Shown here: positions 8,488 to 43,781 of the stretch, piece by piece
Layout of the letters: every line of letters begins with the position of its first letter
How positions within the stretch are numbered: the stretch's first letter is position 1
Source: Pisolithus tinctorius
Lineage: Eukaryota > Basidiomycota > Agaricomycetes > Boletales > Pisolithaceae
Direction: 5' to 3'
Length of the DNA stretch: 64,000 bases
Assembly: GCA_024663395.1 (NCBI GenBank)
Contig: JANFAH010000002.1
Coordinates: forward strand, 3,286,001 to 3,350,000
Program-made: the position numbers and the translations under genes
Notes under the pieces: model-generated
Seen by the model: only the letters and a program-made list of their open reading frames with translations
The model's database searches: none
What the model was told of the DNA's origin: nothing

Positions 8488-8489
8488 TC

Positions 8490-8506: not shown

Positions 8507-10589
8507 GGGGTTCTGTCCAATTTGGGGAAGGAAGTCACCGTTTTATCACCGAACGAAGTTTTGCTGGGTTGAGTTGGACAAGCTAAGTACTCAGAGTCTC
8601 GGTTATAGTTACAGTCTACACTCAGGAGTTTGGGAAATTTTCAGAGTTATTTTTCGAGCAGCAAATGTCGAGCAAGTATCTAAGTCGAAGATCCCTCGAG
8701 CCGAGAAGCAAGTCCGAAGGCAAATTAATAATCGAATTTCTGCGAAGAAGCCATGAGAATGCGCCGAGAGATCTCGAGGGAATGCCACCGAGGCATTCGA
8801 GGGATGCACCATGGTTCTCAGGGTGTGTGTCTGACCTTTTTAGGTATTTCGAAGAGGTTCGAAGTCTTTGCGAGCACGAGAATTGCTTCGATGACCAAGA
8901 ATGGGCGAAATGGGTCTGCTGGTATGCAAGCAGCGAAGTCTCAGACTCATGGTATGAATTCATCAAAGATCAGCTGAGTTGGCCCGAATTCGTGGTGGCC
9001 ATTGTGCGTTTGTATCCTGGGTCCCGGAAAATGGATCAACAGTACTCGAGGAATGACCTTCACAGCCTCATTGACAGCCGAGCAAGAAGAGAAATTCGTA
9101 CAGAGGAAGAACTGATGAACTACAGACTATATTTTCTAGATTTAGCAACGTTTCTACGGGTTTCGAAGCAACTCGAGGCTGACGAGCTCGAAGACCTCTA
9201 TGTACAAGGCTTCGACAAGGAATTCCGGCGCGAAATTATTCGGAAAATGTGACGCGATGATCGACGGCGACACTTGGACGATCCATGGCCCATGGAGCAA
9301 GTAACATACACAGCAACACGACTACTACACAAAGGATTTCGCTCAGAGCGAGCACAAACAAGCGCGGGAGACTACTATGAGCCACGAAGTGACCCAGAAT
9401 CGAGTTTGGACAAGCAACATCTATCTACGAAGTGTTTTCTGCCTACAGCTACACATGACTCGCTGACGAACAATGTACAGGGATCTACAGAGTTATCAAG
9501 GTTCATAGAGTGCGAGAAAGTACCGAAGTTAGTTTCGACAAGTCGTGTGCAGCCACACAGCCCACTGGAGAAGACAAGTAGTGAGGACCGAAGCCCTGGC
9601 AGGCTTGTCGAAGCAGCTGCAGCAACCTGTTTTGAGACGGGAGAGTTTTCCTTGAGTACAAACAGAATACTGACTACTGAGTTACAGGAAGCAGTAGAAC
9701 TCGAGCGAGTCGAACCTGCATTGGTGGAGGAACCACTCACGACGAAAGTCCCGTTCGAATTTGAAGCGAATTACAACACTCAAAGGGGTTTTTCTTTTTG
9801 TTCGTATCAAGCTTCTCTGATGGCTACTGGTGTGTCACTACAGGAGTCCTACCTAAGAGGTCGAGGTAATGAAAGGAGCGGCCTCGGAATTCCTGCAGTC
9901 AGCAGAAATATGCATCAGTTAACCAATGACCCATTCAGGTCAAAGATTCTGCTCGAATTCAAAGCCGAAAGGCTCGAAGAACACCCGAAGCCCACAGGAG
10001 TTGAAGTCGAAGGGCTCGAAATACTCACAGGCAGCCCCGAAACAGATAGGTTGGCATACGAAGAGGTCATTGACTCACACAGAGCGCCGCAGCACATGAA
10101 TCACATCGAGTCGAAGGTTATTGCGAGAAGAATTCGGGTCGAGGAGCCATCAAGGCTCGTCATACGAAGGAAGCCACCAGAAGAAATTTTGCGAATCGAA
10201 ATGTTGAAGCACACGGCGAGGATAGATGCCCTCGCACTCGAAACATTCTGTGGCCGCACAGTATCAGCAATAAATGTTTTATTCGAGGATTCGTCGAGCG
10301 AATCGACGCGCGCACTCGGTGTTAGGACTTGCGCAGAAAGTCCTGCGATGTTGACTAAGCGGAGTCACGTGACCGCTCTGCGCGTCGTGGCCGCGCGCAC
10401 TCAAGTACTACATACCGACGCATCTAGTATTACAGGCCAACTACGCAAGATCGCAGCGACCGAAGGATATGAAGAATGGGGCGAACGACGTACCACGCGC
10501 GAGGTACCACAGTTACGAGCGATGGCGACAGCAGCAAAAGCGACAATGGCAGCGACTCGAGCGACAGCGATGATGACAACGACGACTTT

Positions 10590-13500
10590 ACTTAGTGCAG
10601 ATCAACGGCTGGGCGAGATGGGAAGGACAGTGCTATGGAAACAGGGCGCGATGAGCGCAGGGTCTGAGCTCGACAGCTCAAAGGTCGGTTTTGATTGCAG
10701 AACGTTTTACTTACATCTGCCTTACTCTAGGGAAACCGGATATTCACAACGGACAACAATTGTGATACAAAGAACGACGACAACGGTTACACTTACTGCG
10801 GACCAACGGCCAGGCGAGATCGGATGCACCACTCGATGGAAACAGGGTGGGAAGAGCGCAGATGGAGAGCCCAACGGCTCACAGGTTTGTTTTAGTTTCG
10901 AAACGTTTTACTTACAGCTATTCTACGCAGGAGAAAGCTGGTACATGCGATGGAGACTGACCGACGTCCGAGCGATCACAGTACAAGGAACGACAAAGAC
11001 GGTTGCACTGAGCGCGGACCGACGCTCGTGCGAGAGCGGAAGTGCCATTCCATGGAGGGAAAATGGCTATACACAACGACGTACAAGCGACACCCAGGCC
11101 ATCGCGATACAAGAAACGATGATGATGACAAGACCTAGCAGAGATCGACAGCCAAGCAAGATCGGATGTGCCGCTCAACGGAATTGGGGCACGAGGAATG
11201 CAGATGGAGAGCCCAATGGCTCACAGGTTCGTTCATATTTCGAAACGTTTTACTTACATCTACGCTATTCTAGGGCAGAAAGAGGAGCTGGGTATCTACT
11301 ACGGACAACGATCACGATACAAGAAACGACGATGATGACAAGACCTAGTGGAGATTGACAGCCAAGCAAGATCGGATGTGCCGCTCAACGGAATTGGGGC
11401 ACGAGGAATGCAGATGGAGAGCCCAACGGCTCACAGGTTCGTTCATATTTCGAAACATTTTACTTACATCTATGCTATTCTAGGGCGGAAAGAGGAGCCG
11501 GGTATCTACTACGGACAACGATCGCGATACAAGGAACGACGACGACGATTATGCTGAGCGCAGATACTGAGCCCTATGGCTCAAGGTTTTATGTCGATTT
11601 CAGGATGTTTTACTTACAACTATCCTACTCTAGGAAAAGCAGATGTGCGGGACGACGCTCGAACGATGTCCGAGCAGTGGCGATTCAAGGATCTACGACG
11701 GTCTACCAAGGACAGTGGACCGTCAAGGAGAAGCTACGTGACACGATACAGCGGTACTACTACGAGTGGGGCGAATGGTCAGGACAAGCCGAAGGCTTAA
11801 ATCTAGCGACAGCAACAGTTACAGCGAGGACAACGACAGCGCTGGACTCAGAGTGACAGCCATGCGAGGCTGGAGCAGCCGTTCAATGGAGACAGGGCGC
11901 GACGAGCGCAGATATTGAGCATTACGGCTCAAGGTTTTATTTTGATTTCATAGCATTTTACTTACAGCTATCCTACTCTAGGAAGAGCGAGAGAAACCTA
12001 CAACGAAGCGCGGTCGCAGCGCGAGAATCTACGCAGGACCATGAACGGAAGACACTCGGATGTACAGCGAAACAAGGGCGACGACTATGGTTCGATCTAC
12101 AACAACGACCATCAAGGATACAAGAGCGAGTGCGACATGAGGCAAGAATTGCCATCCGAAGGAAACAACGCGCGATGAAGACCACCGAGCTCGAACGCTC
12201 GAAGTTCTGTTTTAGTCCTATGATAGTTTACTTACGCCTTCGTTATTCTAGGGAGGCCAGATGTCTACGATGGACAACGATCGCGGTACAAGGGACAACG
12301 ACGACAACGAGGCTCGAAGCAGATCGGTGGCCATGCAAGGCTGGAACAGCCGTTCACTGGGAACGAGGCGCGATGAGCGCGGGTACTGGGCTCGACAGCC
12401 CAGGGTTTTGTTTTGATTCTAGAACGTATTACTTACACCTATCCTACTCTAGGGGTGGCAGACAGCTGCGACGAAGTGCAACCAGCGTCCCTGCGATCAA
12501 GACTCAAGAATCTGTGCTCGAACGTCAATGGCGATCGTCGAGGATACAACATCCAACAGTAGACGACGATTCGGAAGAAAGGACACATCGACATACAGTG
12601 CAACAAGTACTACGACGGCTGCGGAAGGCCACAAGAAACAAGTTCAAGGCGACTACATGGACCGGTATACGAGAGTTGCTACAAATGGCGATGCGACGGC
12701 GAGGTTTGAAGTCACGACAAGAAGCAAGACGTGCGAGAAGTGTCGAAGTCACATTGAGTGGGCCCGACGGCCTGAGTTTTAGTTTTTTTTTCGAAGCGTT
12801 TAACTTATGGCTACGTTGTTTCAGGAAATACGAGTTTTCACAGAGTATCGACGAATCATCGAGGATGGATAATGAGTGCGACAGCTCTAGTTTCTGTTTT
12901 CGTTTTGCAAATTTCTACTTACAGCTACGTCATATTAGAATAGACGAAGACGTCGAAGAAGGAACGCATCTATATACAGTACAACAGCGAATTTCAAAGT
13001 CGCAGCAAGACGCACGAGATGCGAGGAGCATCGAAGCCATGCCGAGTGGGCTCGAAGGCCCAAGTCTTGGCCTTCTCTTTAAGCCGTTTTACTTACAGCT
13101 ACCGCATTTTAGGGATCACGAATTTTTACAGAGCATCAACGAACCCTTGAGTGTCGACGCGCCTACAGTACAAAGGTCCGGATCGGGACGACCTGCGACC
13201 GCGTCCCTTCAAGAAGAAGATGCCTACCTTACCATCGATCGAAGTGAAATTTTAGGTCGACACGCTGTTGAGCAGTTAGCGAGGGGAGACACCATCCCCA
13301 TGTTGGATATTGTGCAGAGACATCATGATGTCCCATTTTGTTCGGGGGACACCACAGACGAACGGGACGTGTTGGATATATTGGAGAGATCGGGCGTTAC
13401 ATATATTGTACAGAATGCCTTACTATGGCGAGGCGTGAAAGACCCCTCCGTCTACTTCAGGGGTTACATCGAAGGCACCCGAGCCATCATTGAAGCAGCC

Positions 13501-14450
13501 ATCGCAGCCGGTGTCCATAAGCTCGTCTACACGAGTTCCGCAGGCGTCGTATTTGACAGCACTGACGTCGTGAATGTCAACAAACGAGTGCCCTATCTGG
13601 AGAAGCCGTTCGACGCGTATAATCTACTGCCTTACCGTTCTACCACGTCAAGCGAACCTAGACTGGACCCTGAGGGCGCGACAGCAAAGCTCAACGAATC
13701 TCTACACCGCGCTCTCCCTCCCATATGTGCCACAACCGAATATCACCGCACGATGCAGACACTCAGTTCCTATGTCGCACCCACACCCAACGCTGAATCC
13801 ATCCTATCCGCGTTCAACACCCCATTTGACCCATGTGGACTCACGGACCCCGTTGTCTGTTCTCGAAGCGATGGACAAGTGTTCTTCATCACAAGTGGAG
13901 AAGCGTTCGGTATCTTAGACTTTACAAGGGTATACAATGAGTACGAGTGAAAACCATCGCGCTTAAAGGTACAGGGTACATACAAATGGCTATGTGATGA
14001 GACGAGGGTATGGCTCGTCATCGAACGGTGGTCATTTGAAGCAACAGCAAGCTTTCGATGGATGAGATGCATAGAGGATTCACGCGCTGGGCTTGACAGC
14101 TTGGATTTTCATTTTGATCTTAGAACATTCTGTTTACATCCTCGTTATTCTAGGGAAGATGGACGTTTGCAGCGAATTGCGGTCGCAGAACAAGAGACTA
14201 CGATGAACTGCGAGCAAAGGACATGTGGAGGAATCGACATGTGGCTACTGATGTCTGGAAGAGAAGAAGATGAAGCGAGTTCGAGTAGGCGAGATGGCGA
14301 GCAGTATGCGAAGATTGAGGAGGGGCGAGGCTGGCCAGAACAACGAAGTCGCACACAGTGTATTCGAGGCGGTGTGGATTCAGACACCGAGCCCGAGCGC
14401 TCGTTTTTGTCTTTTGTTTTTATGACGATCTACTCACAAATCTACAGGTC
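10590..14450 (+). repeat. About 12 degenerate 150-300 bp repeats with intron-like core
   Basis: Each unit has a conserved core with 5' GT, a T-rich stretch, TTTTACTTACA, then TAYTCTAGG 10-15 nt later. Cores: 10684-10730, 10885-10930, 11227-11273, 11437-11483, 11586-11633, 11934-11981, 12204-12251, 12405-12452, 12776-12824, 12890-12938, 13064-13112 and 14403-14447. A further unit near 14100 has lost the 5' GT. Cores are 45-49 nt and look like fungal introns (GT, CTTAC branch site, TAG), yet all are open in the giant frame and encode FYLxLxYSR. Two adjacent units (about 11130-11345 and 11345-11550) are almost identical, showing recent tandem duplication. Confidence 0.8.
13190..13950 (+). pseudogene. 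Captured fragment of a host sterol 3-dehydrogenase (ERG26-like)
   Basis: Homology is to the 3-beta-HSD/extended SDR family, which in ergosterol synthesis acts as C-3 sterol dehydrogenase/C-4 decarboxylase. Visible pieces: a decayed Rossmann start ending EILGRHAVEQLARGD, VKDPSVYFRGYIEGTRAII, GVHKLVYTSSAGVVF (catalytic Ser region), PFDAYN (catalytic Tyr region), then a jump to the C-terminal motifs YVAPTPNAESILSAFNTPFD and GQVFFITSGEAFGILDF. The GGxGFLG dinucleotide motif, the Lys of YxxxK and most of the central domain are missing, so it cannot be an active enzyme. It lies in frame with Gag. I recognise the family from memory; no search was run. Confidence 0.7.
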
Positions 14451-14733
14451 TAAGGTACTCGACCGAGCCGAAGCGCAGTTGCTGATATCCGAAGGAAAAG
14501 AAGATGGCGCAAGTTCATGGGTAGAGTGCGAAGAGCTATTGACGAAACTCAGGAAGGGGAAATTTGAAGCCAAGGTGCCCTTTTCGGTTTTGATTCGAAC
14601 ATTATCTACTGCGAGGTACAGGTACCCTGGTGCGAAGGAAAAGGCGATTGATGGGGATGGACGGCTCGAAGCTGTTCATCAGTACTTAGCATCAAGACTT
14701 CGTCCGCCCGACTGTGAGGTTGGAGGCCGATGA

Positions 14734-15784
14734 CCAAGATTGAACAAAGTTAGCACCTTCACCCGTTGGGGTCGAAGACCTATCATCGAAGAGAGCTTGA
14801 GGATCTACAGACTTAAGGTGACAGCTTTTTATTATAGTTCAAACATGTGCTACTTCGAGATATTTTGTTTCTAGCAGTGAACAAGTGGTAGACGAAGATG
14901 GGCGACTCGAGGTCGCTCGGTGACACTTAGTGCGAGAGCTTCGGCCACCTGATGGAGTACCAGACGAAGTACGAGAAATCAAGTGCGCACATGCACAGGG
15001 AGTCGAGGCTGTGAAAATAGGAAGGGGACAAGTGAACGAGGCAAGGGTCCCGGTGAGCATGTTGATGTATAGTTTTCTTTAAAATGAGTTTTGCTTCGAG
15101 CGACGTCGTTCAACCGAGTCGTGCTAACCTTCGGGTGATTCTACTCACCCCAACTTATAGTTTCGAGTTCCATTGTTTTTTTTCTTGGTGCTAAATCGTC
15201 TTAAGGACGAGCAGTAGTCGAGAGCACATATGCGTATAAGGATAGTAAATACACGACTGATCGAGATTTGTTTTAGGTACATATATACGTCTTCGAGCTG
15301 CCTCCTAGAGGGCCAGCATCCGCTGTACCAGCCGCTGAGCTGCATTACACTCTGTTACTGTTTCGCACAAAGACTGTGCCTCAAAGAGCTGTCATTGACT
15401 CGCTCTGCACTCGATTTATTACTCACTTGTTCGCTTGCCTGGAGATTATCTCCGTCGTCTTTTGGTTCGAGGTTTGGGCCTTGAGGGGAGTGTTCGAGAG
15501 GCAGGGTGTGTGTTCGAGAGGCCAGGTGGCGCTCTGTAGGTGGAAAGGGTTGTGTTCGAGGGCGAAAGGTTTTGAGGATGAAGAGGGTTGTTCAGCGAGA
15601 TCAGGAGCATGTTTTGGGAAGGAAGGGGGTCATGTTCGAGTAGTGAGGAGGTTAGGGGCGAAGAGTTGTGTTTGAAGGGCATGAGGATATGTGGTGAGGT
15701 CGAGGGAAGCAGATGCGAGGATGAGGATGTTTGTGTGAGGAGGAGAGCGACCGAGGACAGTCGAATTCTAAACCACCCCTCGGA
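14734..15784 (+). other. Noncoding 3' part of TR-GAG element
   Basis: About 1 kb between the giant frame and the 3' LTR. No domain is recognisable; there are repeated TCGAG/TTCGAG motifs. The bases just before the LTR are pyrimidine-rich, not a polypurine tract; a purine-rich stretch (GAGGAGGAGAG) lies about 40 nt upstream. Confidence 0.6.
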
Positions 15785-16248
15785 TGTAGGGAACGAGTTC
15801 GAGTTCCCTAGGAGAATCCGTCTTGGTCAGGAGTTTAGGGGTGGAAGGACTTGTTTTATTTCTTGCCTTTGTTTTTGTGTTTGTACCCCTGGACTTGGTG
15901 ACGAGCAGCCGCGTCGCTGACTAAGCGCATGTGCTGTGTTCGTGCGAGTTCAGTTTACCATAACAACCAGTACATGTCACAGGCCCTCAGTAGTAGGGTG
16001 ATTTAGTCTCGCATTTCGGCGAGTTTTCAAAGTTAGATTTATTACTTTGGGGAGTACCCAAAGTGCCAGGAGGACTGGCAAGAGTATTAGACAGGCACAG
16101 CTAAGTATCTTTTTTCTAGTTCGCATTTTTTACTTTTTTACTACACTTCTTTCTCCAGAGAGAACCTCCCTCTTGGGTCGAGCAATATACTCACCCATCA
16201 TTACTGACTATTACCATTATAGGTATATCTATTTTACCTATTCCTACA
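15785..16248 (+). repeat. 3' LTR of TR-GAG element (464 bp)
   Basis: Same length and ends as 8024-8487. Confidence 0.93.
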
Positions 16249-16587
16249 CTGGCATACTGGGGTCAGACACAGGATTTGTATAGTAAGCAAAGTCAGATGA
16301 ACAGGCTAGACTAAATATAGTACAAGCAAAGGGAAACAGACCAGAGTTATGTCCAGGTGACCTGGACATAGACCTGGGAGGACCAGGGTGGAGCAGCGCA
16401 AGGCTGGGAGGCCGAAACAGACCGGAGATAGGGGTAAAACACCGGACTTGAGTTATGCAGGCTGGAGTTGAGTTATCTAGGGCCGGGATTGGGTTTTCTA
16501 GGCTGGTCTAGGACCGGACTTGACCGGAGATAGGGGCTAGGGGTCCAGACTGGACTGGGACCAAGTCTGAGAGTCATGGATATGACA
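16249..16587 (-). repeat. Family C LTR, outer part
   Basis: Minus-strand LTR start TGTCATATCC at 16587. It continues at 8023 once the TR-GAG element is removed. The element lies in the gag of D1, whose sequence starts at 16588. Confidence 0.72.
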
Positions 16588-21199: not shown

Positions 21200-22258
21200 T
21201 CACCCAGAGTCTCCCTCGAAAACCCCTCCCTCACTCGTCCAGAGTTCCCTTTCCTCTCCACTTTCCAACCCGGACCACTGACCCTTCATGTGCACATCCT
21301 TGGGCCAGCACATGACCCTCTCGTCCAACTCCACCCCCACTCCTTTGTGATCCGACTGAAGGCTCTCGAGCTCCAGGTCTGCCACATCCAAGTGCAGCTC
21401 TTCACTGGATTCGGACGCTGGGGGGGGCGGGCAAAGCACAAACTCAAACTCACCCAGCAGATCACCCAGCTGATTGTTGAATCAGCACTGGGTCTCCCTC
21501 CTGGCTCACATCTCCATGGTCTGACAGTCTATAGCAGCTGTGATTAGTTCAAAACCCTTGGTCACTGCTGCAACCAGAGGGTTGGAAGAGGTGGTAGTGG
21601 GTGCTACCACTCCTGAGGGGCCAGCTTCCAACTCACCGGGCACCCCAGACCCAGTTTGGACAACCTTCTTCTTCTCCCCAGCCCTCGGTGATGTGGTGTC
21701 CTCTGGCACTCGTTTCTTCCCCAACTTCACCCCAACCTCCTTGACCTCAGGCTCTACCCCCTCAGGCAGCTTGCACTTGACCTTCATCTCAGTACACTGG
21801 TCGCATGTCCTCTTCTTGCACTTACTCTGCTGTGTGCGACTGAAGGTACATGGTACCTGCCCCTTCTTGCATTGTTGGCATGACATGGCACTCGTCACCT
21901 GTGCCTTGCCCTTTGGTTCTCCCACCTTCTGTTGGGCATGGGCCTCCTGCTCTCAGCACTTGGCCTCCAGTCACCCCTGCTCCCACCTCTTGGCCTCCAG
22001 CTGTTCCTGCTCATGTCTCTTGGCCTCCAACCTCTCTTGCTCTCAATGCTCAGCCTCCAGTTGCTCTCTCTTGAGCCTTTCTGCCTCCAACCGAGCAGCC
22101 TCTTCCCTCAGCACCTTGTGCCGCTTGTGCTCAGCCATCTTAGCCCAGATGTCAGCCTCCTCATCATTGCTGGTGATTTGGAGTTCAGGCATGGTGGCCT
22201 TCTGAAAGCCAGTTGGGTTGTTGGGTATGTGCAGGGAAGCTTGACAGGTAGAAGACAT
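21200..22258 (-). pseudogene. Antisense accessory gene of D1 (coiled coil + Zn2Cys6)
   Basis: Opposite in strand to pol and convergent with it (pol ends 21080, this ends 21200). ATG at 22258 reads MSSTCQASLHIPNNP. Then an acidic linker, a Glu/Arg/Leu-rich coiled coil (EEAARLEAERLKREQLEAE) broken by several TGA, and a cysteine cluster at 21880-21773, C-x2-C-x6-C-x14-C-x2-C-x6-C, which is the spacing of fungal Zn(II)2Cys6 binuclear clusters. A basic segment (KKRTCDQCTEMKVKCKLPEG) lies across the cluster. The C-terminal third has SSEELHLDVADLELESL and an acidic tail. Same gene as D2's at 43782-44852. Its start is 143 bp inside the 3' LTR. Role unknown; DNA binding is an inference from the cluster. 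Confidence 0.78.
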
Positions 22259-22401: not shown

Positions 22402-22871
22402 TGTCACATACCGAGACACCCACAGTTTGGCCTTAGGTTCAGAACACCGAAACAAACTCTGTTCCTTGTTATACTCTTTTCTAGTTAGCTTCTGTACTGC
22501 CCTTGCTTGTGCTGGGGCAGTGTCTGTCTTCAGCTCTCTGATCCCTGTCTCCTCACTTAACCTTTAGTTGGTTCCTTGTACAGCTATTTAGTCTCCCACT
22601 GGCAACCCTGGCCTTTGGGTTACCGGTCTTTGGTATATATACTCTACATACGTTGTACTTAGCCCCCCAGTCTGAATATCAAACTAGTTCACCCTCTGCT
22701 CCTAAGCTTAAGCCTGAGATGACTCTTGGCTTTCGCTCCTGACCCCCCTTGGCTTTCTCTGACTTCAACCCAGCTTGCACAAGGGTCTAGCGCACAAGCT
22801 CAGACCAAGGGTTGTTGCACCCAGCACTCAGCCTTCAGCCTTCAACCCCTGTCCCAGTCTCAAACTTAACA
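22402..22871 (+). repeat. 3' LTR of D1 (470 bp)
   Basis: TGTCACATACC to CTTAACA. About 485 bp in D2. Contains the AGTCTGAATATCAAC transcript-start motif near 22670. Confidence 0.92.
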
Positions 22872-25479: not shown

Positions 25480-26002
25480 TGTCAAGTATGGGATGTCCGG
25501 GTTGAGGCTGGACCGGAGACCGAAGTGGGCGCGAGGCCGAGGGGTCAGGATCAGGAGAGGAGTCAAGGATACAGGTAGTTGGACTGATTGGACTTAGCGA
25601 CTGAGGATACAGCGCTATTCCCTTGTGTGGGCCTCAGTCTGAGTCCAAGGCTGAAGCGGGGTTATCAGAGTATACTTAGTTGATTTCAGACTGAGGTCTA
25701 CAGGCCGAGTATCTATGAGCTTATATACTAGAGTAGCTATAGTACGGAGACCGGTAATGCCAGTCTCGCAAGGATTGCTAAGACGATTGGTAAGGCAAGG
25801 ATTACTAATGTATGACTAAGGTAACGGAGACTGGGACAGGTGGACCGGGGACAACACTGGGCAGAGCTTAACCGAAGTGACAGACACTGCAAAGCAGTGT
25901 CTACCGTGCTAGACCAACTGGAGATACGGGACAGGCGAGGCTGAGGCCGGACTGAGTGAGTGCAAGGCCGAGTCCGGCCAGGGTCGAGGCATGACTATGA
26001 CA
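25480..26002 (-). repeat. 3' LTR of A2 (523 bp)
   Basis: Ends as in 32445-32967. It differs at some thirty sites, mostly C/T or G/A at CpG. Keeps the AGTCTGAAAT start motif (25692-25683), which the 5' copy has lost. The polypurine tract CTAAGAGGGGGATAC adjoins at 26003. Confidence 0.95.
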
Positions 26003-26122
26003 GTATCCCCCTCTTAGGGGTTGAACCCATGAGACCCCTGCGAGAGTGGCAGGCTGAGTTTGAAAAACCAATACTTGTGGCTCGCTAAGCCCTTTGCATC
26101 TTTCTTTCTCATCCTATTCATC

Positions 26123-27173
26123 ATGTCTGAATCGAGGCCGATCAGCACGACTGGCAATGACAACAAAGGCTGGGTCATCGTTGACTGGACCCAGGTAGCA
26201 GACAACGCCATCAGGTATGACACCGATGACGAAGAGGAGGTGATGAAGGCGAAGGCGAAGGAGAGAAAAAGGCAAAAGGCAGCCAAGCAAGCCCAGCGGG
26301 AGGAGCAGGCTTGGATTGAGGCTGAGAGGGTGGTGAGAGAGCAAGCCGAGGCCAAGAGGATAGCATGGGAGGCCAAGGAGCAAAGGGCTCACAAGGAAGA
26401 AGAGAAGTGCAGAGCCGAGGAGGAGAAGGAGGCCGAGCAGAAACATAAGGCCAAGGCCAACAAGGGAGATGAGGCTGGGGGGGAGGTGAGGAAGGTGGTT
26501 ATGGACCCCAGGTGAGTACTCTTTCAACCTTGTGCATTTTTTTCATTTAATCTCCTCTGTTAGATGTACTCACTGCTCCTGAGCTAAGGTCACCTGTGAG
26601 TTCCTCATAGATGGCAATAAGAAGTGGGTAGCCTGCGTTCAGTGCAACCTATCGAAGGGCAAGTGCTGGTGGCCGGGAGACGGGAAGGATGCCAAGGCCA
26701 GTCCCAAGGTCAAGGCTGACAAAGGGAAGAAGCGGAAGGCTGACAAAGAGACGCCAGAGCCCGGGCCGAGCCAGAAGAAGCAGGCAAAGTCCAGGCTGAC
26801 CGAGGTGCTGGAGATTGACGAGCCTGAGGCCAGTGGGAGTGGGGTGAGGAAGGCCAGCACAGGGGGACCCTCTGGCTTAGAAGAAAAGCTCGAGCAGCTT
26901 ATTGATGTCACAGGGCTCATTGCCAACAACCTGGCGGGGCTCTTCGAGCTTCATGAGACCGTGGCTGAGAACTCAGGCCGCATAGCCGACACGCTCGAGT
27001 CGCTGCTCGACAAGTCCTATGGCTTTGGCATGGTGGTGTCCCCCTTGGACTCGGGCTCATCTGAGCTCGACTCCAATGAGTTGTGTGAGGAGGCCAACTG
27101 GTTAAGAACCCATGGCGAAGACGAGGAGGAGGAGGCCAGAGGGGAAGATGAACCCATGGCTGAGGCCGAGTAG
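26123..27173 (+). pseudogene. Antisense accessory gene of A2 (coiled coil, intron, Zn2Cys6)
   Basis: Opposite to gag-pol; ATG 26123 (MSESRPISTTG) lies 120 bp from the 3' LTR, and the gene ends 183 bp short of the pol stop. An in-frame ATG at 26060 is an alternative. Exon 1 (26123-26511) encodes an acidic start (YDTDDEEEVMKAKAKERKR) and a long charged coiled coil. An intron 26512-26563 (GTGAGT..TTAG, 52 nt) is followed by exon 2, whose first residues form C-x2-C-x6-C-x12-C-x2-C-x6-C (codons 26565-26666), the Zn(II)2Cys6 spacing. A single TGA (26580) falls inside the cluster. Then a Lys-rich stretch (KADKGKKRKADKE), a leucine-rich segment (LEEKLEQLIDVTGLIANN) and an acidic end. Function unknown; possibly DNA binding. 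Confidence 0.8.
26512..26563 (+). other. Intron in A2 accessory gene
   Basis: GTGAGTACTC to CTCTGTTAG, 52 nt. Splicing joins codon AG|A (Arg) directly to the first Cys of the zinc cluster. E1's homologue has a 54-nt intron a little before its cluster (36051-36104). Being antisense to the genomic RNA, it would not be removed during retrotransposition. Confidence 0.75.
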
Positions 27174-27356
27174 TTTTGTAGCATACGGTCTTGTAGTTTT
27201 TTCCTTCTGCGAATGTCATGCGTCTGGTGTCCAGTGTCCGGTGTCCAGTAAAGTAAGAGAAACAGAAGAAAGGGAAAACAAGGTAAGTAAGAGATCAAAG
27301 AAAACTAGATACCAATAGAAAACAGAAAAGAAGCTGAGGCCAGTTGAGACTGGTCC

Positions 27357-28819
27357 TCATTGATATGGTCTGGGTTTACCAGGATAGCTGGAGTGAAATT
27401 CTTGGATGAGTTCAGAAGCATTGTCAAGCTCTGTAGCGAGTACCCAAGTAGTTTCTTCATCAGTCCCCTCATAGCCGGTCCACCGGACTAGATACTGTAA
27501 CCAACACCGGCAACGCCGGTCGACCTTAGAGTCGAGGATTTCTGCTACCTCAAACTCTAGTTCACTGTCAACTTCGGCTGGTGGGGGTGGTGGTTGGGTC
27601 CAGTTCGGGATGGTGTTAGGGACAGCCAGCTCGAGTTGGGAAACATGGAAGACTGGGTGCACTGTGCACATTGAGTCTGGCAGGCACAGTGTGAAAGAGT
27701 GGGTACCGGCCTGAGCTATGACCGGGTATGGCCCAAGGTTCTTCTCTGAGAGTTTCTTGGAAGGCTGGGTCAACCAGAAATATTTAGCTTTGACATACAC
27801 CTGGTCACCGACCTTGAAGTCCAGGGCCGGCATGCATTTAGCATCGGCTGGTCCTTGGTAGCATTGTTGTGCGAGGGTCATCTCCTCACGTAGGTACTGG
27901 TGCAATGCATCTAGATCGACTGCATAATCGTGAGCCCGAGTGGAGGTAAGATCGTGCTCAGGGTATACTGAGATGTTGGGATGGTAGCCCTTATTAGCGA
28001 AGAAGGGTGAAACACCAGTAGTAGTGCTAGGGGCATTATTGTAAGCAAACTCGGCCAGGGGTAGTAGGTCGGCCCAGTTGTCCTGCTGGTAGTTGCAGTA
28101 CACTCGGAGGTATTGCTCAAGAGTTTGGTTGGTCCTTTCAGTCTGACCATCACCTTTGGGGTGGTAGCCTGAAGTGAAGTGTAGGCACATGTCCAAGGCC
28201 TTACCGAGTACTGGAAGAAGTGCGAGACGAACTCCGAGCCTCGGTCTGAGGTTACATGGGCCAGCACCCCGTGCTTAGAAAAGACATGGAGTAGGAACAA
28301 CCTGGCAAGTTCTGGGGCTGTTATGTCATGGGTGGGGATGAATATGGCCTGCTTGGAAAGCTGGTCAACTACGATGAGGATGGCCGTGAAGCCAGTTGAG
28401 GCCGGGAGTTGCTCAATGAAATCCATAGAAATAGAATTCCATGGCTTCTCTGGCACCGGGAGTTGCTTGAGGAGGCCGTAAGGCCGATGGCGGGGAACCT
28501 TAGCCCGAGCACAGGCCATGCAAGACCGGACATAGTCTTTGATGAAGGTCCTGAGGCTGGGCCAGGTATACTCACACTGAATGAGCTCCAGTGTGCATTT
28601 TTGGCCGAAGTGGCCAGACAGAGGGTCGTCATGCTTGAGGCGCAAGACCCTAAGGTGAAAGTCATTTGAGTCCGGCACATAGATCCTTCCATCAAGCCGA
28701 AGGAAGCCGGTATCATCTACTGACCACTGGGGATCAGACATGTCGGACAGGCGGATTTGTGAGACCGGGTCGTCTGGCAGTGCAGTCAGGATATCATTAT
28801 GAAGTTTTTCTATATCCAT
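27357..28819 (-). pseudogene. pol of A2: integrase and chromodomain
   Basis: Starts MDIEKLHNDIL (28819). HHCC zinc domain (KHDDPLSGHFG; CMACARAK), catalytic SMDFIEQ, TSDRGSEF and DGQTERTNQ are all present. One frameshift near 28200-28215 (after EFVSHFF). GPY-type region NLGPYPVIAQAGTHSF. C-terminal chromodomain FEVAEILDSKVD, YLVRWTGYEGTDEETTW, ending at TAA-type stop 27357 after KPRPYQ. The chromodomain would direct insertion to marked chromatin. Confidence 0.92.
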
Positions 28820-28825
28820 CAGTGC

Positions 28826-31074
28826 GACTGCTCATAAGACCAGGTACTCGAGGTATGTGGTGTGAAGGGAGACTGCTAGTTGTTCTTGGGTGAAGACCAG
28901 TCTCAGGTTTTGCGGGTTCACTCGGGCATAGCCACTATCCCCCTCTTTGGGGTAGACGTCCCATCGTCTAGTAAGGGCGTTGGGCTTAGCCCTGAGCTTA
29001 CCGGGCCTAAATCTGATGATCATATTGAATTGCGAAAGGAATTCAGACCAGCGAGCTTGGCAGTGGGTGAGTACTTTAGAGGTAGAAAAGTACTCGAGAT
29101 TCTTGTGGTCGGTAACAACGTTGACTGGTGAGGCCGAGCCCTTAAGGTAGTGGTGCCAGGTCCGGAATGCTTCAAAGATTGCAAGCAGTTCCTTATCGTG
29201 GGTATCATAATTCAATTCCGGGGCTATCAGAGTCTGGGAGTAAAAAGCAACCAGGTGGATCTGGCTGTCGCTGCAGGTGATAGAGAGGATGCTGGCGATG
29301 GCATAGTCCGAAGCATCGGTCTCAACAGTGATAGGAACCCCGGGGATGAAGTGGGTTAAGACTGGTGCGGTAGTGAAGGTGGCCTTGAGGTTATTAAATG
29401 ACCAGCGACACTCCTCTGAGAAGTTCCAAGGAGCACCCTTGCGGGTAAGCCGAGTCAGCGGTATGACAATGTCCGAGTAGTTAAAGATAAAACAGCGGTA
29501 AAAATTGGCGAAGCCGAGGAAAGATTGAATGTCCTTGACCTTGCGAGCCTCAGGCCAGTCGCAGATGGTCTGGACCTTTTCCTTGGACATCATGAGGCCG
29601 GCAGGGGAGAGGTGGAACCTGAGGTATTCGACCAAGTCTGAGTGAAACTCACATTTCTCCGGCTTTGCATAAAGGCTGTGAAGCTGAAGCTGGCAGAGTA
29701 CCTCTCGGACATGCTGCTTGTGAGACTCCTTATCTCCAGAGTAGATCAGGATGTCATCTAGGTAGACGACCACACAGACATCCAACATATCCACGAAGAT
29801 AGTGTTGATGAAGCGCTGGAAGGTGGCCGGGGCATTGGTGAGGCCGAAGGGCATCACTAACCACTCGTAAGAACCATACCGAGTCCGGAATGCGGTTTTC
29901 CATTCATCGCCCGGAGCAATCTGGACGAGATGGTAGGCATGCTGAAGATCAATTTTAGTATAGATCTTGGCTCGGCTTGGTGAATCCAAGAGGTCGGAGA
30001 TGAGTGGGAGTGGGTAGCGGTCCTTCTTAGTGATTTTGTTGAGGCCGCGGAAGTCTACACAAAGTCAGAGGGAGCCGTCCTTCTTTTTGACAAAGAGGAC
30101 TGGAGCAGCATAGGGGGAAGAGGTTGGCTGAATGAATCTGGTAGCAAGGTTTTCATCGATGAAAGTCTGGAGAGCTTGGAGCTCGACTGGAGACAGCAAG
30201 TAGATTGTGCTGAGAGGCGGGGTTGTTCCTTCTTCGAGCTCTATCTTTAGGTCATACTCCCAGTGGGGTGGGAGTGCCAAGGCCTTGGCCTTGCTGAATA
30301 CATCAGTGAAGTCATGGTACTCTTCCGGTACATTGGGTAAGGCCGGAGGAGAGGAAGCCGAGGCCGATCGGGCTTGAGCTGAGTCCGAGGGGTGGAGCTG
30401 AAGTTGGAACTGGACAGACCCTTCTAGTTTGCAGGTGCGCACAAAAGTGGCTGCATTGATTAGGGAAACAAGAGGGGCCTTCAGGGGGGTGCGAGCCGGG
30501 GAGTCGGAGACCGGTACAGATGGTGCAAGGCCAGGTTGGTCACTAGGACCGGAGTCAGGGAGGCTGGTGGAAACCGGGCTTACGGGGGGTGTCAATGGGG
30601 TTGGCATTCCTTGTGCAGGAGTCTGGAATGTTAGACTGCCCAATACCCAATCAATCAATGGATTGTAGCAGGTGAGCCAGTCATGTCCAAGAACTACTCT
30701 ACACTCAGAATCCAACAGGGCTAGATACAGGGTTACTGGGGTGACATCGCCAGACGCGAAGTGGATGTTGACATCTACTGCTTGGGTTATGGTAAAGGTG
30801 GACGTTCCATCAAAAAGCCGGAGTCGGATTGGGGAGACCGAGTACGGGGTAAAAGATTGTTGATTAGCAAAGTGATTATCTATAAAACAGTGAGTGGAAC
30901 CAGAGTCCACTAAAGTACGAAGCCGAGGTAAATCTGGGTTTTCTAATGTGACATACAGGGTCAAGGAGTTCAGACTGGAAAGAGCGGATGCATTGAGACG
31001 AGCCTCCAAGTTTGCACAACCGGAGTCAACGCAGCTCCCAGATTGTGCAGAGTCCTGGGAGCTGCTACCTATTT
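28826..31074 (-). pseudogene. pol of A2: protease, RT, RNase H
   Basis: Protease LVDSGSTHCFID and VLGHDWLTCYNPLIDWV. RT has an intact YLDDILIYS box and MPFGLTNAPATFQRF. TGA stops near 30065 (KKDGSL-stop-LCVDF) and near 28832 (LEYLVL-stop-AVALM) replace Arg codons of relatives. RNase [40 protein letters not shown]. Reached by -1 shift from gag at 31072-31078. Apart from the two stops the frame is continuous. Confidence 0.93.
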
Positions 31075-31078
31075 TTTT
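31031..31078 (-). promoter_or_regulatory. -1 frameshift signal of A2
   Basis: ACA AAA AAA TAG: heptamer A AAA AAA at 31078-31072, gag stop 31071-31069, 3-nt GTA, then a perfect 11-bp hairpin GCAGCTCCCAG (31065-31055)/CTGGGAGCTGC (31041-31031) with a 13-nt loop. Spacer of 6 nt fits known viral signals. The -1 frame is open through the hairpin to the protease. Confidence 0.87.
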
Positions 31079-32406
31079 GTCTCAGGGGTAGAACCCGAGC
31101 CCGAGGCCGGTGCGGCCTCGGTGGTGGCCACAGCATGAGCTTTGGCCTTTCTGGCTTTCTTGGGGCATTTGTCAGCGAAATGACCAGACCCTCCACAGAA
31201 CATGCAGAGGTTTCTGTCTAGGTGACGCTTGTGTTCCTCTGGGGTAAGCTTTCCATCTTTGCTGAGTTTGCTAGGCTCGGGCTTGGATGAATTGCTGTTA
31301 TTACCATTGCCCGGCTTCAATGAAGCTGGCTTAGGGGAAGAACCAGAGTTGTTATTGTTGCCAGTCTTGGTCTTCTCTTGACTGTTGTTGCCAGAACCTC
31401 TGGACTTATTGTTGCTGGAGTTGGACGAGCCTTGGTGCTTACTCGCCCGCTGGACTTCTTCCTTGCACTCCCAATAGCACGCATCTATCTCCTGGGCAAG
31501 GTGGCAGAGCTCATGTAGAGTCTGGGGTTTTCCAACCCAGCAGACCTCATCTTTGATTCGGTCTGGAAGGCCGGAATAGAAATGGTGGCACAGCACACCG
31601 TCTCCATAGCCTCGGACTTGCGAGGCAAGCTGATTAAAGTCAACTATGTATTTGTTGATGCGCTGGTTATCCTTCATGTGTAAATGGTCGAGCTGACTCT
31701 CGGCGTCAGCAACCAGGTCGTGGGGGCCAAAGGTGGTTTGTAGCTCTAAGGCAAACTCCCTCCAGGAGTCCATCCAGAGAGGCCAGTCATTGGGGTCATC
31801 GAGCCCGAGCAAGTCCGGCTCGAACCATTCAAGGGCCATGCCCTTGAGGTAAGACTGCACAAAGATGACTTTGGCACAGTCAGTCCTGAAAGCCTGGGGA
31901 CAGTCTTGGAAATTGAGCTCGCACTGGATGAAGAAAGTGCGAAGTTTCTTTGGGTCGGTACCATCAAAAGTGTTGGGCTCGTGCAACTTGGTCCTGCTTG
32001 AGGATTCAGGGCTAGTGCGGGCATTGCGAGCCAACAGTTTGATGGCCGATGCGAGGTTGTCCAAGACTGTGATGGCGGGCTCGGTGTCCGGATCTGGGAA
32101 GTCTGGATCATCATCACCAGGACCATTATTACCAGGGTCATCATCATCTGGGTTGTTGTCATCATCGCCGCCCGGCCCATCATCACCAGGGTCACCCTTG
32201 GGGATGGGAGCAGTGGGACAATGTGGAGTGGGGGTATTGGATGTGCAGGCTGAAAAGCCCCTGAAAGGACTGACGGGGTCTGGGGAGCGCCTAGTGGTGC
32301 CCAATGCAGCTAGAGCTGTTTTGTGGCGAGCCCCACTGGCTGAAGCGGAGTCGGGGTTAGTGGCAGAACAACCACAGGGAGGTTGAAAACGAGTCTTGGT
32401 TGCCAT
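31069..32406 (-). CDS. Gag polyprotein of A2, intact
   Basis: 445 codons, ATG 32406, no internal stop. Residues about 1-150 are a Ser/Pro and then Asp/Gly/Asn-rich leader (GDDGPGGDDDNNPDDDD). The capsid-like region (about 155-330) has NTFDGTDPKKLRTFF, SYLKGMALEWFEPDLL, INKYIVDFNQLASQVRGYG and FYSGLPDRIKDEVCWVGKP. An Asn/Ser/Gly/Lys linker follows, then a CCHC knuckle at about 401-414 (CMFCGGSGHFADKC) for RNA packaging and a basic end. It terminates at the frameshift site, so most ribosomes would stop here and a minority would make Gag-Pol. The only intact Gag in the window. Confidence 0.94.
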   Translation of the reverse strand: MATKTRFQPPCGCSATNPDSASASGARHKTALAALGTTRRSPDPVSPFRGFSACTSNTPTPHCPTAPIPKGDPGDDGPGGDDDNNPDDDDPGNNGPGDDDPDFPDPDTEPAITVLDNLASAIKLLARNARTSPESSSRTKLHEPNTFDGTDPKKLRTFFIQCELNFQDCPQAFRTDCAKVIFVQSYLKGMALEWFEPDLLGLDDPNDWPLWMDSWREFALELQTTFGPHDLVADAESQLDHLHMKDNQRINKYIVDFNQLASQVRGYGDGVLCHHFYSGLPDRIKDEVCWVGKPQTLHELCHLAQEIDACYWECKEEVQRASKHQGSSNSSNNKSRGSGNNSQEKTKTGNNNNSGSSPKPASLKPGNGNNSNSSKPEPSKLSKDGKLTPEEHKRHLDRNLCMFCGGSGHFADKCPKKARKAKAHAVATTEAAPASGSGSTPETKK

Positions 32407-32432
32407 GATGTATTAGACCCACACAAGTGGAG

Positions 32433-32444
32433 AGTCTGAAATAC
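32433..32444 (-). promoter_or_regulatory. Primer binding site of A2 (self-priming type)
   Basis: GT then ATTTCAGACT (32442-32433) beside the LTR. Complementary to AGTCTGAAAT of the 3' LTR (25692-25683). The 5' LTR now reads AGTTTGAAAT (32657-32648), one transition. A second complementarity, CTTGTGTGGG after the site to CCCACGCAAG in the LTR, resembles the U5-IR stem. Confidence 0.72.
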
Positions 32445-32967
32445 TGTCAAGTATGGGATGTCCGGGTTGAGGCCAGACCGGAGACCAAAGTGGGTGCAAG
32501 GCCGAGGGGTCGGGATCAGGAGAGGAGTCGAGGATACAGGTAGTTGGACTGATTGGACTTAGTGACTGAGGATACAGCGCTATTCCCTTGCGTGGGCCTC
32601 AGTCCGAGTCTGAGGCCGAAGTGGGGTTATCAGAGTATACTTAGTTGATTTCAAACTGAGGTCTACAGGCCGAGTATCTACGAGCTTATATACTAGAGTA
32701 GCTATAGTACGGAGACCGGTAATGCCGGTCTCGCAAGGATTGCTAAGATGATTGCTAAGGCAAGGATTACTAATGTATGACTAAGGTAATGGAGACCGGG
32801 ACAGGTGGACCGGGGACAAGACCGGGCAGAGCTTAACCGAAGTGACAGACACTGCAAAGCAGTGTCTACCACACTAGACCAACTGGAGATATGGGACAGG
32901 CGAGGCCAAGGCCAGACTGAGTGAGTGCGAGGCCAAGTCCAGCCAGGGTCGAGGCATGACTATGACA
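32445..32967 (-). repeat. 5' LTR of A2 (523 bp)
   Basis: TGTCATAGTCATG (32967) to ACTTGACA (32445). TATATAAG box about 34 nt before the predicted start. Flanked by TTCCA. Confidence 0.96.
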
Positions 32968-35257: not shown

Positions 35258-36484
35258 CTACTCTTCCATCACTTGTCCTCTGCCACCCTCCTGTTCCTCT
35301 CCACCTTCCTTCTCTCCTCCAACTTCTTCCTCTTCCTCATTATCCCCCTCTGCACCTTCATCTGCTTCTTTGTTCTTGTCCTCCACTGCCTCCGACTGAG
35401 GCCTCTTCCATCCTCCACCTGTGCGCTCGAGCTCAGCCATCCTGGCCTCTCGCACATCCTCCCTCCTCCTCATCTCTGCCCACTCTTCCCAGGTGCAGTA
35501 CAGCGCCCACTCATCGGCTGTCCGCTCTGCAGCCACCGCCATCCACTCCGCTGCCCTTGCCATCCTCTCGAAGGCTGTCGCAGCCTTCTCGTGCACCACC
35601 GCGTACCTCTCCGCAGCCTGCAGCTGCCACTCCCACTCCCACTCTGTCCACCAGGAGGAGACCCCCGCTTCTAAGGGTCCCTCGTGTGGTGTTGCTGGCT
35701 CTTCCTTGTCTTCTCTGCCTACCTCCCACTCGTCATCCACTTCCTCTGTCTCTGTCACTTTCTCCTTTCCCTTCCCTCATGTCCTCTTCTTCTTCTCTCC
35801 TCGGGAACTCCCCATCCCTGCTCTCTTCCACGAGGGTCCCACCGCCACCTCTTCCTGCGTCCAACTGCAGGTTTTCTTCTTGTTGTGGCAGGGTGCGCAG
35901 GCCCTGGTCTTACCTTGCCCTGGCTCGCACTGACCCGCCATCAGACTCACTATGCAGTGAGTGCAAGGGGGCTGCCTGGTTGTGGTGACCACCACAGAGG
36001 TCCCAGGGACCCTCTGGGTGGTGTTGACATCATAGACCGCGCTGCTTAACCTGAAATAAAAATACAAGTCAGCTCTGCCTGACTTGTAGGATTCTGTCAC
36101 TCACCTTTGTGTGGCCTCATCCCACCTGGCCTGGGCCCTCTCTGCAGAAGCCCTCTGCCTCTGCCTTTCTGCCTCCTCCTCTGCCACCTTCTTCCTTCAA
36201 GCCTCCTCTTCCTCCTCTGCTCTCTTCCTCCACTCCGCCTCCAACCTCTCCTCCTCCATCTTCCGCCTCGTGGCCTCCTCACACTTGGCCTTGTGCTCTG
36301 CCTTGCGCTCTCTCTCTCTCCGCTCGGTCTCCTCTCATTGGCGCACCTTCTCTGCAGACTTCTCCCGCTCAGTGTTGGTGGAGTCATCAGTGAGGATGAC
36401 CAGTTCTTCATCCGCGACTTGGGAGTAGTTGTGGACATGGCTGGGGGTTGGCTGGGGGGTGTTGCTCTGGCGCTGGGAAGGCAT
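35258..36484 (-). pseudogene. Antisense accessory gene of E1 (coiled coil, intron, Cys cluster)
   Basis: ATG 36484 (MPSQRQSNTPQ), 193 bp from the 3' LTR and antisense to it. Exon 1 (36484-36105) carries an acidic start and a Glu/Arg/Lys coiled coil (RKMEEERLEAEWRKRAEEEE) with two TGA stops. Intron 36104-36051 (GTGAGT..GCTGAC..TTTCAG, 54 nt) joins EATQ|R to LSSAVYDV in frame. Exon 2 has C-x2-C-x8-C-x9-C-x2-C-x6-C (CTHC..CAPCHNKKKTC), a slightly altered Zn2Cys6 pattern. A change of frame is needed near 35770-35780 to reach the C-terminal part (35758-35258), which is Trp/Glu/Ala-rich and ends in a very acidic tail. Sequence has diverged greatly from A2 and D2, but architecture, strand and intron are shared. 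Confidence 0.72.
36051..36104 (-). other. Intron in E1 accessory gene
   Basis: GTGAGTGACAG to TTTATTTCAG with a GCTGAC branch site. Located upstream of the cysteine cluster, like the A2 intron. Confidence 0.75.
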
Positions 36485-36677
36485 GATGATAGGGGGAAGG
36501 GACGAAGGTTCAGTACCCTGACACGTGTTTTTAAGCGGTACTTTGAACTCCGATGGAGCTCCACCACAGCTAAAGCCATCATCCTTGAGGCATCAAAATA
36601 ATTTCAAATGATCAACTCATGTTGATCTTGTCCCATACATGCAGCCTTCAGGGGTTCAGGCCCTAAGGGGGGGGCAC

Positions 36678-37391
36678 TGTCATAACCATGTGTTCATCAT
36701 AGGTCTTTGCTCACTCCGCAACCTTTTCTGCCGGTCATCTGCTCACTCTGTACCAACTCCACCCAACTTCTGTTGGTTGCGAACCATCTCCACTCTGACT
36801 GCTGTCGGACTTGTGTTGCTCTCCTACCAGACCGAGCAGTCCATTCTCTGAGGGGTCATGTGACTACCTTCGCAGTCAGGTACTCTGCAGTGCGCTCACC
36901 ACATGGTCCAGTGCCTGGACTGTTTCCTTTTCTGGATGTTCTGTGTTACCTGTTCATATGTCCTCTGTCTACTCTTCATTCGTTGTCCAGGAAATTTTAC
37001 TTGAAAATTTATGAGTCTCCATATGTCAGTTCCGATTCCGATTACTGTACCTCCATAGCAGTATAAAAGCATGTACTGTACTCTGCTGTTCTTCAGTACA
37101 AATATCAACTGAGTTCCTACTCCCTCTGACTCCGTCTTCTGCCTGTTGGAGTTATCTCCGACTCTCCGTCTGTACTCTCCCTCTGAAATACGAGGGCTGA
37201 GATCATGCAAGGGGGTAGTGCATGAGCTAAACCCGACGCCCTCACTCTGCTCCGCCTTTGCTTCAGCAGTCTTCATCTCTGCCAACACTCCACTAGTCGG
37301 AGTTCTGTTCCTGTGTGTCGGACTTGCTTCTGGACCCTCCTCTAGACCTTGTTTAGCGTCGGAGTTGGTCAGAGTAGGCCCAGACTTGACA
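36678..37391 (+). repeat. 3' LTR of E1 (714 bp)
   Basis: TGTCATAACCATG to GACTTGACA, preceded by CTAAGGGGGGGGCAC. Transcript-start motif AGTACAAATATCAAC near 37100. Partner LTR 52405-53111 (707 bp) and solo LTR 37733-38446. Confidence 0.95.
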
Positions 37392-42316: not shown

Positions 42317-43154
42317 ATGCCCCCTTGTCACTACACCTACCCCCATGAACCCTCCCACAGACACACCCCCTTTGCTCGTCACCAACAACAGCCTGCTAGT
42401 GATCAGATGATTGCTTCTTACTGACTTTTCATCACTGATCCCACTGTTGTTGGTACTGTCTACTACAAAGTCGATGAGAACTCCCCTCTCAACCTGGTCT
42501 ATCACACTACCATCCAAGCCCTTTGGCTTGAAGAGTTGTCTCACTATGTCAATCAACAGAACCCTCTTCTGTCCCCTGCATGTACTATACTAAATGAAAT
42601 CATGTATGAGCAGGATCCCCTGCTTCTCAGACTCTTCGATATTCTTGGAGGTGCAGACCTCATTTATAACATCCATCAATACCCCACATTGATCACACCC
42701 CCTCCCCCTGGGTCTCGAAGACCCTTGACTGCAACCTCTCCCCCAGTTTCATCTGTGTCATCTTCCCCTCCAGTGTCATCGCCATCATCCTCCCAGTCAT
42801 CCCACTCTCTCAGAAGAGCTGACAGACCCTGGGCCTGCTGCCTGTCTGGCCCTAACCCCCAACCTTGCAAGTCTCATGACTCCCCATCTGAAGTAGACCC
42901 TGAGACTGCTTTTGGCATCTCTAGAGCCAAACTCAACTACACCTTGAACATTGTCGAGACTCTCACCCAGTTACCACCATCCCCTGTGCTGAACGCACTC
43001 ACTGAGGCTGATCGTCCTCTTACCCCTTCTGATCCACACTATTGTCAGACTTGTTATGTCTGCCACTGCCTTGGGCATGTCCACATCAATTGTGGACTCT
43101 ATGAATGTCCACTCTGTCACACCACTCATCCTGGACATACCCAGGCTCAATGCC
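42317..43154 (+). pseudogene. Third ORF of family B (B2), tandem zinc knuckles
   Basis: Same strand as B2 pol, starting 37 bp after its stop. ATG 42317 (MPPCHYTYPHEP), one TGA near 42421. Middle part ITDPTVVGTVYYKVDENSP, then a Pro/Ser-rich region and two zinc-knuckle-like motifs near the end: CYVCHCLGHVHINC (CX2CX4HX4C) and CPLCHTTHPGHTQAQC (CX2CX6HX4C). D2 is inserted at 43154; the last about 55 codons are at 24391-24223. Intact length would be near 335 codons. It is a distinct ORF, not Gag. Nucleic-acid binding is an inference from the knuckles. Confidence 0.72.
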
Positions 43155-43639: not shown

Positions 43640-43781
43640 GTATCCCCCCCTTAGGGTCAAGCCCTCAAGACCCACCCTAAGGTACATGAGGTCAGCAGTC
43701 ACTGTGCTGACAGAACATGTGTTCCCTGGGGTTAAAAAGGTGTGTTTTTGCGAAGACTTGTTTTCTCCCGACTCCTTCATC

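Follow-up and report, generated by a model that had tools for sequence, protein, structure and literature searches.

An antisense gene for a coiled-coil, zinc-cluster-like protein in chromodomain Ty3 retrotransposons of Pisolithus tinctorius

Genes that are read against the direction of gag and pol have been described in a few groups of long terminal repeat (LTR) retrotransposons. In plants, the Retand, Grande and RIRE2 elements carry antisense additional open reading frames (ORFs) known as aORF-3R (passages of PMC7264820 and PMC11963269). GENE23 of Grande is nuclear and has its own promoter (passages of PMC7264820), and the TRP28 protein of Retand is predicted to bind DNA (passages of PMC11963269). 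In fungi, the Boty-like elements of Botrytis cinerea contain the antisense gene brtn (Zhao 2011, as cited in passages of PMC8365987 and PMC7264820). Passages of the same plant papers mention HBZ of human T-cell leukaemia virus type 1 (HTLV-1; PMC11963269) and the antisense promoter that HTLV has in its 3' LTR (PMC7264820). What antisense accessory genes do for LTR retrotransposons has been called an open question (passages of PMC7264820). Here we analyse such a gene in a 64,000-nucleotide stretch of the ectomycorrhizal basidiomycete Pisolithus tinctorius (contig JANFAH010000002.1, positions 3,286,001 to 3,350,000; the whole stretch is called the window below), where four copies occur in three LTR families: A2 in the first, D1 and D2 in the second and E1 in the third (families A, D and E). 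The gene is carried by Ty3 elements, where it runs antisense in the interval from the chromodomain integrase to the 3' LTR, and in all three families it is a real protein gene under purifying selection.

The gene resembles the plant aORF-3R in two properties: it is an ORF that runs against gag-pol in the space from pol to the 3' LTR, and it is conserved as coding sequence, with codon selection and six retained cysteines. Retand differs: it is a plant element of a lineage outside the chromoviruses, its 3' region is long, and it carries TRP28 or SMC domains. For the plant genes, the word intron is absent from the text of PMC11963269, and no six-cysteine cluster is named in the passages of PMC11963269 or PMC7264820. 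As far as its description in the citing passages allows a comparison, brtn is like the Pisolithus gene an antisense gene of a fungal retrotransposon, with an ascomycete as host. HBZ is a nuclear protein that a retroelement likewise encodes in antisense direction close to its 3' LTR; host and protein are different, so the likeness is one of analogy only. Antisense accessory genes as such are therefore already published, in plants and in Boty; an antisense gene for a zinc-cluster protein in an LTR element, or a basidiomycete case, was not found in the titles and abstract openings of the open-access literature, and no such gene is described in the searched passages of PMC2864245, PMC3411680 and PMC5408684.

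The A2 element (25480–32967, minus strand) is a Ty3 element bounded by LTRs at 25480–26002 and 32445–32967 that are 93.7% identical. Its gag-pol region (27357–32412) begins with gag (Retrotrans_gag) and continues into a broken pol, which ends in SH3_Tf2-1 and a chromodomain (27357–28274, minus strand) and converges with the antisense gene. On the plus strand, a leader reaching from the 3' LTR to the antisense ATG (26003–26122) holds the complement of the polypurine tract (PPT), a CT-rich stretch and the start context CATCATG. Exon 1 (26123–26511) encodes an acidic start and a coiled coil; exon 2 (26564–27173) encodes the six-cysteine cluster, basic clusters, a second helix and an acidic tail. 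An earlier interpretation of the window, made from its letters without database searches (the sequence-only reading), had given the gene as 26123–27173. This stretch is not a single open frame: a 52-nt intron on the antisense strand (26512–26563, GTGAGT...TAG) interrupts it, and a single in-frame stop, within the cluster region of exon 2, remains after splicing.

The other three copies follow the same plan. D2 (43782–44852, plus strand) is intronless with two internal stops, and its cysteine cluster lies at about 44172–44279; between it and the adjoining LTR (43154–43639, strand not assigned) is a leader (43640–43781, plus strand) with the PPT complement, an inverted repeat and a TTAAAAAGG box about 50 nt upstream of the ATG. 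D1 (21200–22258, minus strand) has five internal stops and adjoins an LTR at 22402–22871 (strand not assigned). E1 (35258–36484, minus strand) consists of two exons around a 54-nt intron (36104–36051, minus strand, GTGAGT...CAG), retains three stops after splicing and adjoins an LTR at 36677–37391 (strand not assigned). The four antisense genes and their translations in the sequence-only reading thus belong to a real gene, though all four window copies are broken by internal stops. The distance of 120 to 193 bp that it gave between start codon and PPT was right as well: from ATG to LTR we measured 120 bp in A2, 142 in D2, 144 in D1 and 193 in E1. The claim that the gene lies between pol and 3' LTR holds for A2, for most D loci and for E copies fetched elsewhere. 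It does not hold for E1 in the window, which is separated from its own pol; the pol beside it (32.9–35.2 kb) repeats that of D1 at 90–94%, and no integrase-chromodomain was seen in it.

The wider comparison is based on DNA searches of the contigs of the 92.5-Mb P. tinctorius assembly with the D, A and E genes, in which a capped set of about 40 places per family was scored out of 77 (D), 332 (A) and 400 (E) first-look candidates. By a strict criterion, 17 of 20 D loci have an integrase-chromodomain beside the gene and on the opposite strand. The exceptions are L010, where it is 2.3 kb away, L019, which has none in this orientation, and L021, which missed the criterion. An integrase-chromodomain also adjoins the gene on the opposite strand in all four fetched E copies, whose chromodomain tail resembles that of the pol at window position 47356, and in both A elements that were found through pol. 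For family A the neighbourhood was counted between 40 of 41 gene places and 84 of 150 chromodomain-SH3 places, chosen by eye: 17 of the 40 have a chromodomain-SH3 at most 1 kb behind the gene, in all 17 on the opposite strand, and the other 23 have none among those 84. D and E loci were found through the gene itself, so these counts cover copies that carry it. LTR pairs were recognised in 8 of the 20 D loci and are 93.0–96.3% identical (L025, at a contig end, was set aside).

Uninterrupted copies of all three families are present elsewhere in the genome. Once the intron is removed, 7 of 11 A copies yield a product of 324–334 amino acids (L030 and L031 are near-duplicates), 2 of 22 D copies are open throughout, and in E both exons are open in 1 of 11 copies. 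Of 421 pairwise gaps between D copies, 280 have a length divisible by three. Families A and E each carry a short antisense-strand intron with GT...AG ends, and D has none. In the raw A DNA, GTGAGT or GTAAGT stands at the exon edge of 11/11 copies, and the E splice pattern was found in 10 of 11 copies by a search script that imposes it. Intron length varies from 49 to 62 nt in A and from 54 to 78 nt in E, and identity over ungapped A columns is 71% in the intron against 83% in the exons. That length and sequence of the intron drift while its ends are kept fixes the coding strand. An intron on this strand can outlast retrotransposition, since the genomic RNA holds only its complement. The spliced product of the A copy L035 equals, letter for letter over 332 amino acids, the gene model M404DRAFT_32831 (P0111) of another P. 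tinctorius assembly. The two may be one locus, so the match is evidence for an identical choice of splice by an annotation pipeline and not for a second, independent copy. L033, when spliced, yields a product that agrees with the public P. tinctorius protein P0215.

Selection on codons was measured as the ratio of nonsynonymous to synonymous changes between pairs of copies. Copies decay after insertion with many transitions, and each ratio was therefore compared with 200 shuffles that keep the trinucleotide context of each change. The copies were chosen for few stops and a kept frame, namely 9 of 11 in A (without L031 and L033), 11 of 22 in D (the rest mostly having more stops or a shifted frame) and 7 of 11 in E (without L040, L045, L047 and L048); pairs share copies and are hence not independent. 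The median ratio is 0.51 in A (36 pairs), 0.57 in D (55 pairs) and 0.50 in E (21 pairs), and at most 0.5% of the shuffles are as low in 33/36, 45/55 and 19/21 pairs, respectively. The selection that the sequence-only reading had supposed is thus borne out across copies. Two results count the other way: selection does not appear in every pair, with maxima of 1.01 (A), 1.15 (D) and 0.81 (E), and A alone has clearly fewer stops than its shuffles (71 vs 121.2), the counts being near expectation in D (334 vs 361.5) and E (102 vs 112.9). Near-expected stop counts in D and E fit neutral decay after insertion.

The antisense frame might also be a mere by-product of coding on the sense strand, by an ORF in the position of env on the gag-pol strand. 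The opposite frame is indeed open for 364 amino acids in D2 and over the whole stretch in L014, and it too scores below 1, because it shares third codon positions with the antisense frame. However, the antisense frame is the lowest of all six in 33/36 A, 50/55 D and 20/21 E pairs (103 of 112), and the complementary frame that shares third positions ranks second, with medians of 0.58–0.65, as expected from the overlap. The splice sites point to the antisense strand, and the identical public model M404DRAFT_32831 reads that strand. We regard a sense-strand origin of the frame as next to negligible.

A second possibility is that the antisense transcript matters and not the protein, by antisense or double-stranded RNA control of the element. 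Its overlap with the genomic RNA would exceed 1 kb, antisense RNAs in roles of this kind are discussed in passages of PMC7264820, and D and E show hardly any depletion of stops. The constraint on codons of the antisense frame and the retention of splice sites and cysteines speak for a protein, and make an RNA-based explanation quite improbable; a role of the RNA may exist in addition. Sense-strand coding and a function of the RNA alone are both disfavoured by the orientation of the splice sites and by the frame tests, with the weak stop depletion in D and E noted.

The constraint on the gene can be compared with that on pol. For the same 16 D loci, the median ratio is 0.47 for the integrase-chromodomain and 0.61 for the antisense gene (119 of 120 pairs; L022, identical to L023, and the one pair with fewer than 20 differences were left out). 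The antisense gene is constrained, somewhat less than pol. Distances between loci in the D gene and in the integrase are correlated (Mantel r 0.66, reached in 0 of 2000 permutations, 16 loci). Taken together, about 40 scored copies per family, uninterrupted copies, splice sites, codon constraint and six cysteines amount to more than chance.

The protein has the same domain order in all families: a helix of about 75–95 residues, the six-cysteine cluster, a stretch with basic clusters, a second helix and an acidic tail (models of the helices were made for A and D). Each of the 44 DNA copies retains all six cysteines (22/22 D, 11/11 A, 11/11 E). Four other cysteine columns in D are kept in 10–65% of the copies, and D columns overall have a mean retention of 0.77, with 41% fully kept. 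Since 41% of D columns are fully kept, the signal is that all six cysteines are kept together. The full cluster spacing is found in 29/30 A, 10/17 D and 15/22 E public gene models (two of the 17 D entries are our own translations of L013 and L028), and we put the incomplete clusters down to gene prediction and decay. The last 50 residues are acidic, as the sequence-only reading had said, with net charges of −18, −16 and −9 (one protein per family). The acidic start that it gave to all copies is clear in A only (−7 over residues 1–30, against −2 in E and 0 in D; again one protein each).

Fungal Zn(II)2Cys6 factors follow the pattern C-x2-C-x6-C-x5-12-C-x2-C-x6-8-C. The spacings that had been read for A2, D1 and D2 are correct, as is the change in E: x2-x6-x12-x2-x6 in A, x2-x6-x14-x2-x6 in D and x2-x8-x9-x2-x6 in E. 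The protein may belong to the Zn2Cys6 class: A shares its six-cysteine spacing with the Zn(2)-Cys(6) regulators of PF00172 such as Gal4 and AlcR; D has a longer loop, E with x8 in the first half does not fit, and the Pfam match is weak.

Our best explanation, to which we give somewhat better than even chances, is that an element-encoded, selected antisense accessory gene acts as a nuclear regulator in a chromodomain Ty3 clade. A short promoter immediately internal to the 3' LTR would drive antisense transcription of the gene. The protein would oligomerise through its coiled coil, bind zinc with its six cysteines and enter the nucleus through the basic clusters behind them. There it would work for the element at the level of DNA or chromatin, and its most likely task would be to tune transcription from the element's own LTR; guiding integration or countering silencing would be less likely roles. 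Zinc binding, DNA binding, nuclear location and LTR control, taken as a whole, may be about as probable as their contrary. A narrower version is possible, if rather doubtful: the antisense gene, spliced and driven by a promoter of its own inside the 3' LTR, might yield a sequence-specific zinc-cluster transcription factor that reads the LTR or leader of its element. This would be a self-made switch like that of HBZ, a bZIP protein, with a separate origin.

Several observations weigh against a nuclear regulator of this class. The Pfam cut-off for Zn_clus (PF00172), curated at 21 bits, is not reached, the best score being 18.2 bits (P0002); matches at E≤1 occur in 3/30 A and 3/17 D gene models and in 0/22 E gene models. 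Despite KKRK-like clusters, the 60 residues behind the cysteines are near neutral (+1, 0, −1). The structure prediction that had been proposed gave confident helices and a cysteine cluster with a low predicted local distance difference test (pLDDT) score, with short helices near the CxxC pairs; mean pLDDT is 59.8 and 55.2 for the A and D models from AlphaFold2, which are confident for the helices only. A Foldseek search of the A model against PDB gave no useful match. Profile searches of PDB with A and D gave insignificant matches only (coiled-coil and designed chains, thanatin and others), among them the D profile with the ethanol-regulon factor 1f4s at E 3.2. Unlike in the PF00172 regulators, the coiled coil precedes the cluster. 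In Gal4 the order is the opposite.

The same observations could point to a real protein that is no DNA-binding regulator, and is instead a zinc-stabilised coiled-coil protein that works in the particle or together with genomic RNA, for example as a chaperone or scaffold. Its helices are long and confidently predicted, the cluster departs from the Zn2Cys6 class with a spacing that varies among families, and the charge behind the cluster is near neutral. On the other hand, antisense expression would be an odd route to a particle protein, the six cysteines are kept in all 44 DNA copies, and the plant counterpart GENE23 is nuclear (passages of PMC7264820). We therefore consider a particle protein unlikely.

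The leaders bear on the proposed promoter. D leaders keep GGGTTAAAAAGG, or a form one base shorter, in 20/20 copies, and E leaders keep TTAAAAACAC in 11/11, both about 50 nt upstream of the ATG. The leader ends in CATCATG in A (9 of 11 leaders compared) and in D, and in CACCATG in 3 of 11 E leaders. This suggests a small promoter within the element between PPT and ATG, comparable to the own promoter of gene23 in Grande (passages of PMC7264820).

The leaders also contain inverted repeats. Each of the three families has one directly internal to the PPT (window positions 26003–26070, 43640–43700 and about 36640–36670), with the forms GGGGTC-N10-GACCCC in A, GGGTC-N10-GACCC in D and, in the E window copy, GCCT-N10-AGGC. 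The loops are similar, and the arms vary by family and yet pair, so that a hairpin or a candidate binding site may be considered. E leaders have GATCAAC-N4-GTTGATC in 10 of 11 copies. Among the 19 D leaders that keep the region, TCGGCA-N7-TGCCGA (CGG-N11-CCG) occurs in two, and the arms match in nine (by eye); other D copies have decayed forms of it. We do not claim this palindrome as an operator: L014 and L020 differ, and L028, with an uninterrupted gene, is without the stretch.

The A, D and E genes are likely divergent homologues of a single origin, judging from profile matches that run across the cluster for A-D (98%) and A-E (97%). The match between D and E (82%) is confined to the N-terminus, and the coiled coil inflates profile scores at an effective number of sequences (Neff) of about 1.7, which makes the probabilities soft. 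Ten chromoviral pol ends of mixed lineages were chosen from 150 scored places (1710 candidates). The gene is present on two of the ten, both A-like and falling in one clade, and it was not seen within 2.3 kb of the other eight. A tree built from 18 chromodomain segments unites the pols of A and D type with the E-type pol at window position 47832 in one group (95/94) and sets this group apart from lineages that lack the gene; the tree has little resolution in many of its inner branches, and the fetched E loci are outside it. One acquisition in the ancestor of the A/D/E clade would be the simplest account. Together with the correlation between D gene and integrase, the A-D and A-E profile matches support the co-evolution with the element that the sequence-only reading had proposed. 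As a separate observation, 6 of the 10 pol ends (L049–L051, L056–L058) have a sense-strand open frame of 444–529 amino acids behind or overlapping the end of pol, a possible accessory gene of another chromovirus lineage; window positions 63080–63850 (minus strand) look similar by eye.

The distribution among public proteins is narrow. In the search with the D protein (8000 candidates scored), 24 of 108 matches are plainly related, 23 of D type and one of A type, from P. tinctorius (20) and P. orientalis (4); the other 84 were discounted as coiled-coil matches, a judgement made from their names and coverage and not one by one. The best 120 of 180 A matches are all from P. tinctorius, as are 46/46 E matches. 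Among the matches listed for the D, A and E proteins, none judged related lies outside Pisolithus, and a spread across basidiomycetes is so far not supported.

Finally, the gene could be a host zinc-cluster gene that was captured lately and merely hitch-hikes. Some public names agree with this, since the UniRef label 'Zn(2)-C6 fungal-ty...' is given to 39 of the best 120 A matches, to 4 of 23 matches of the D protein (P0003–P0025) and to 0 of 46 E matches. However, three families have the gene in the same position and orientation, its divergence in D is correlated with that of the integrase, and the related matches listed include no homologue in another genus (protein searches, without genomic context). 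A recent capture is very improbable; a host copy within Pisolithus may nevertheless exist.

The gene adds to the plant systems a non-plant case, in a fungus, which offers a recognisable candidate domain, a coding strand settled by an intron, and uninterrupted copies in three families. Among Pisolithus gene models, well over a hundred that are labelled 'Zn(2)-C6' or hypothetical are probably element-borne. Zinc-finger genes are among the commonest genes near repeats (passages of PMC10066745), and part of these may be the antisense gene.

Other parts of the window also contain repeats. At 8024–16252, an LTR pair that is 98.7% identical surrounds ORFs with a gag-like start (by eye); three ORFs scanned within it gave no Pfam pol match. 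The ORF at 11857–13950 contains a 3-beta-HSD stretch (PF01073, E 6e-13) and is probably a captured host gene. Degenerate tandem repeats lie inside this young LTR element at 10605–12447, and a 185-bp repeat is present in three copies at 55683–56245.
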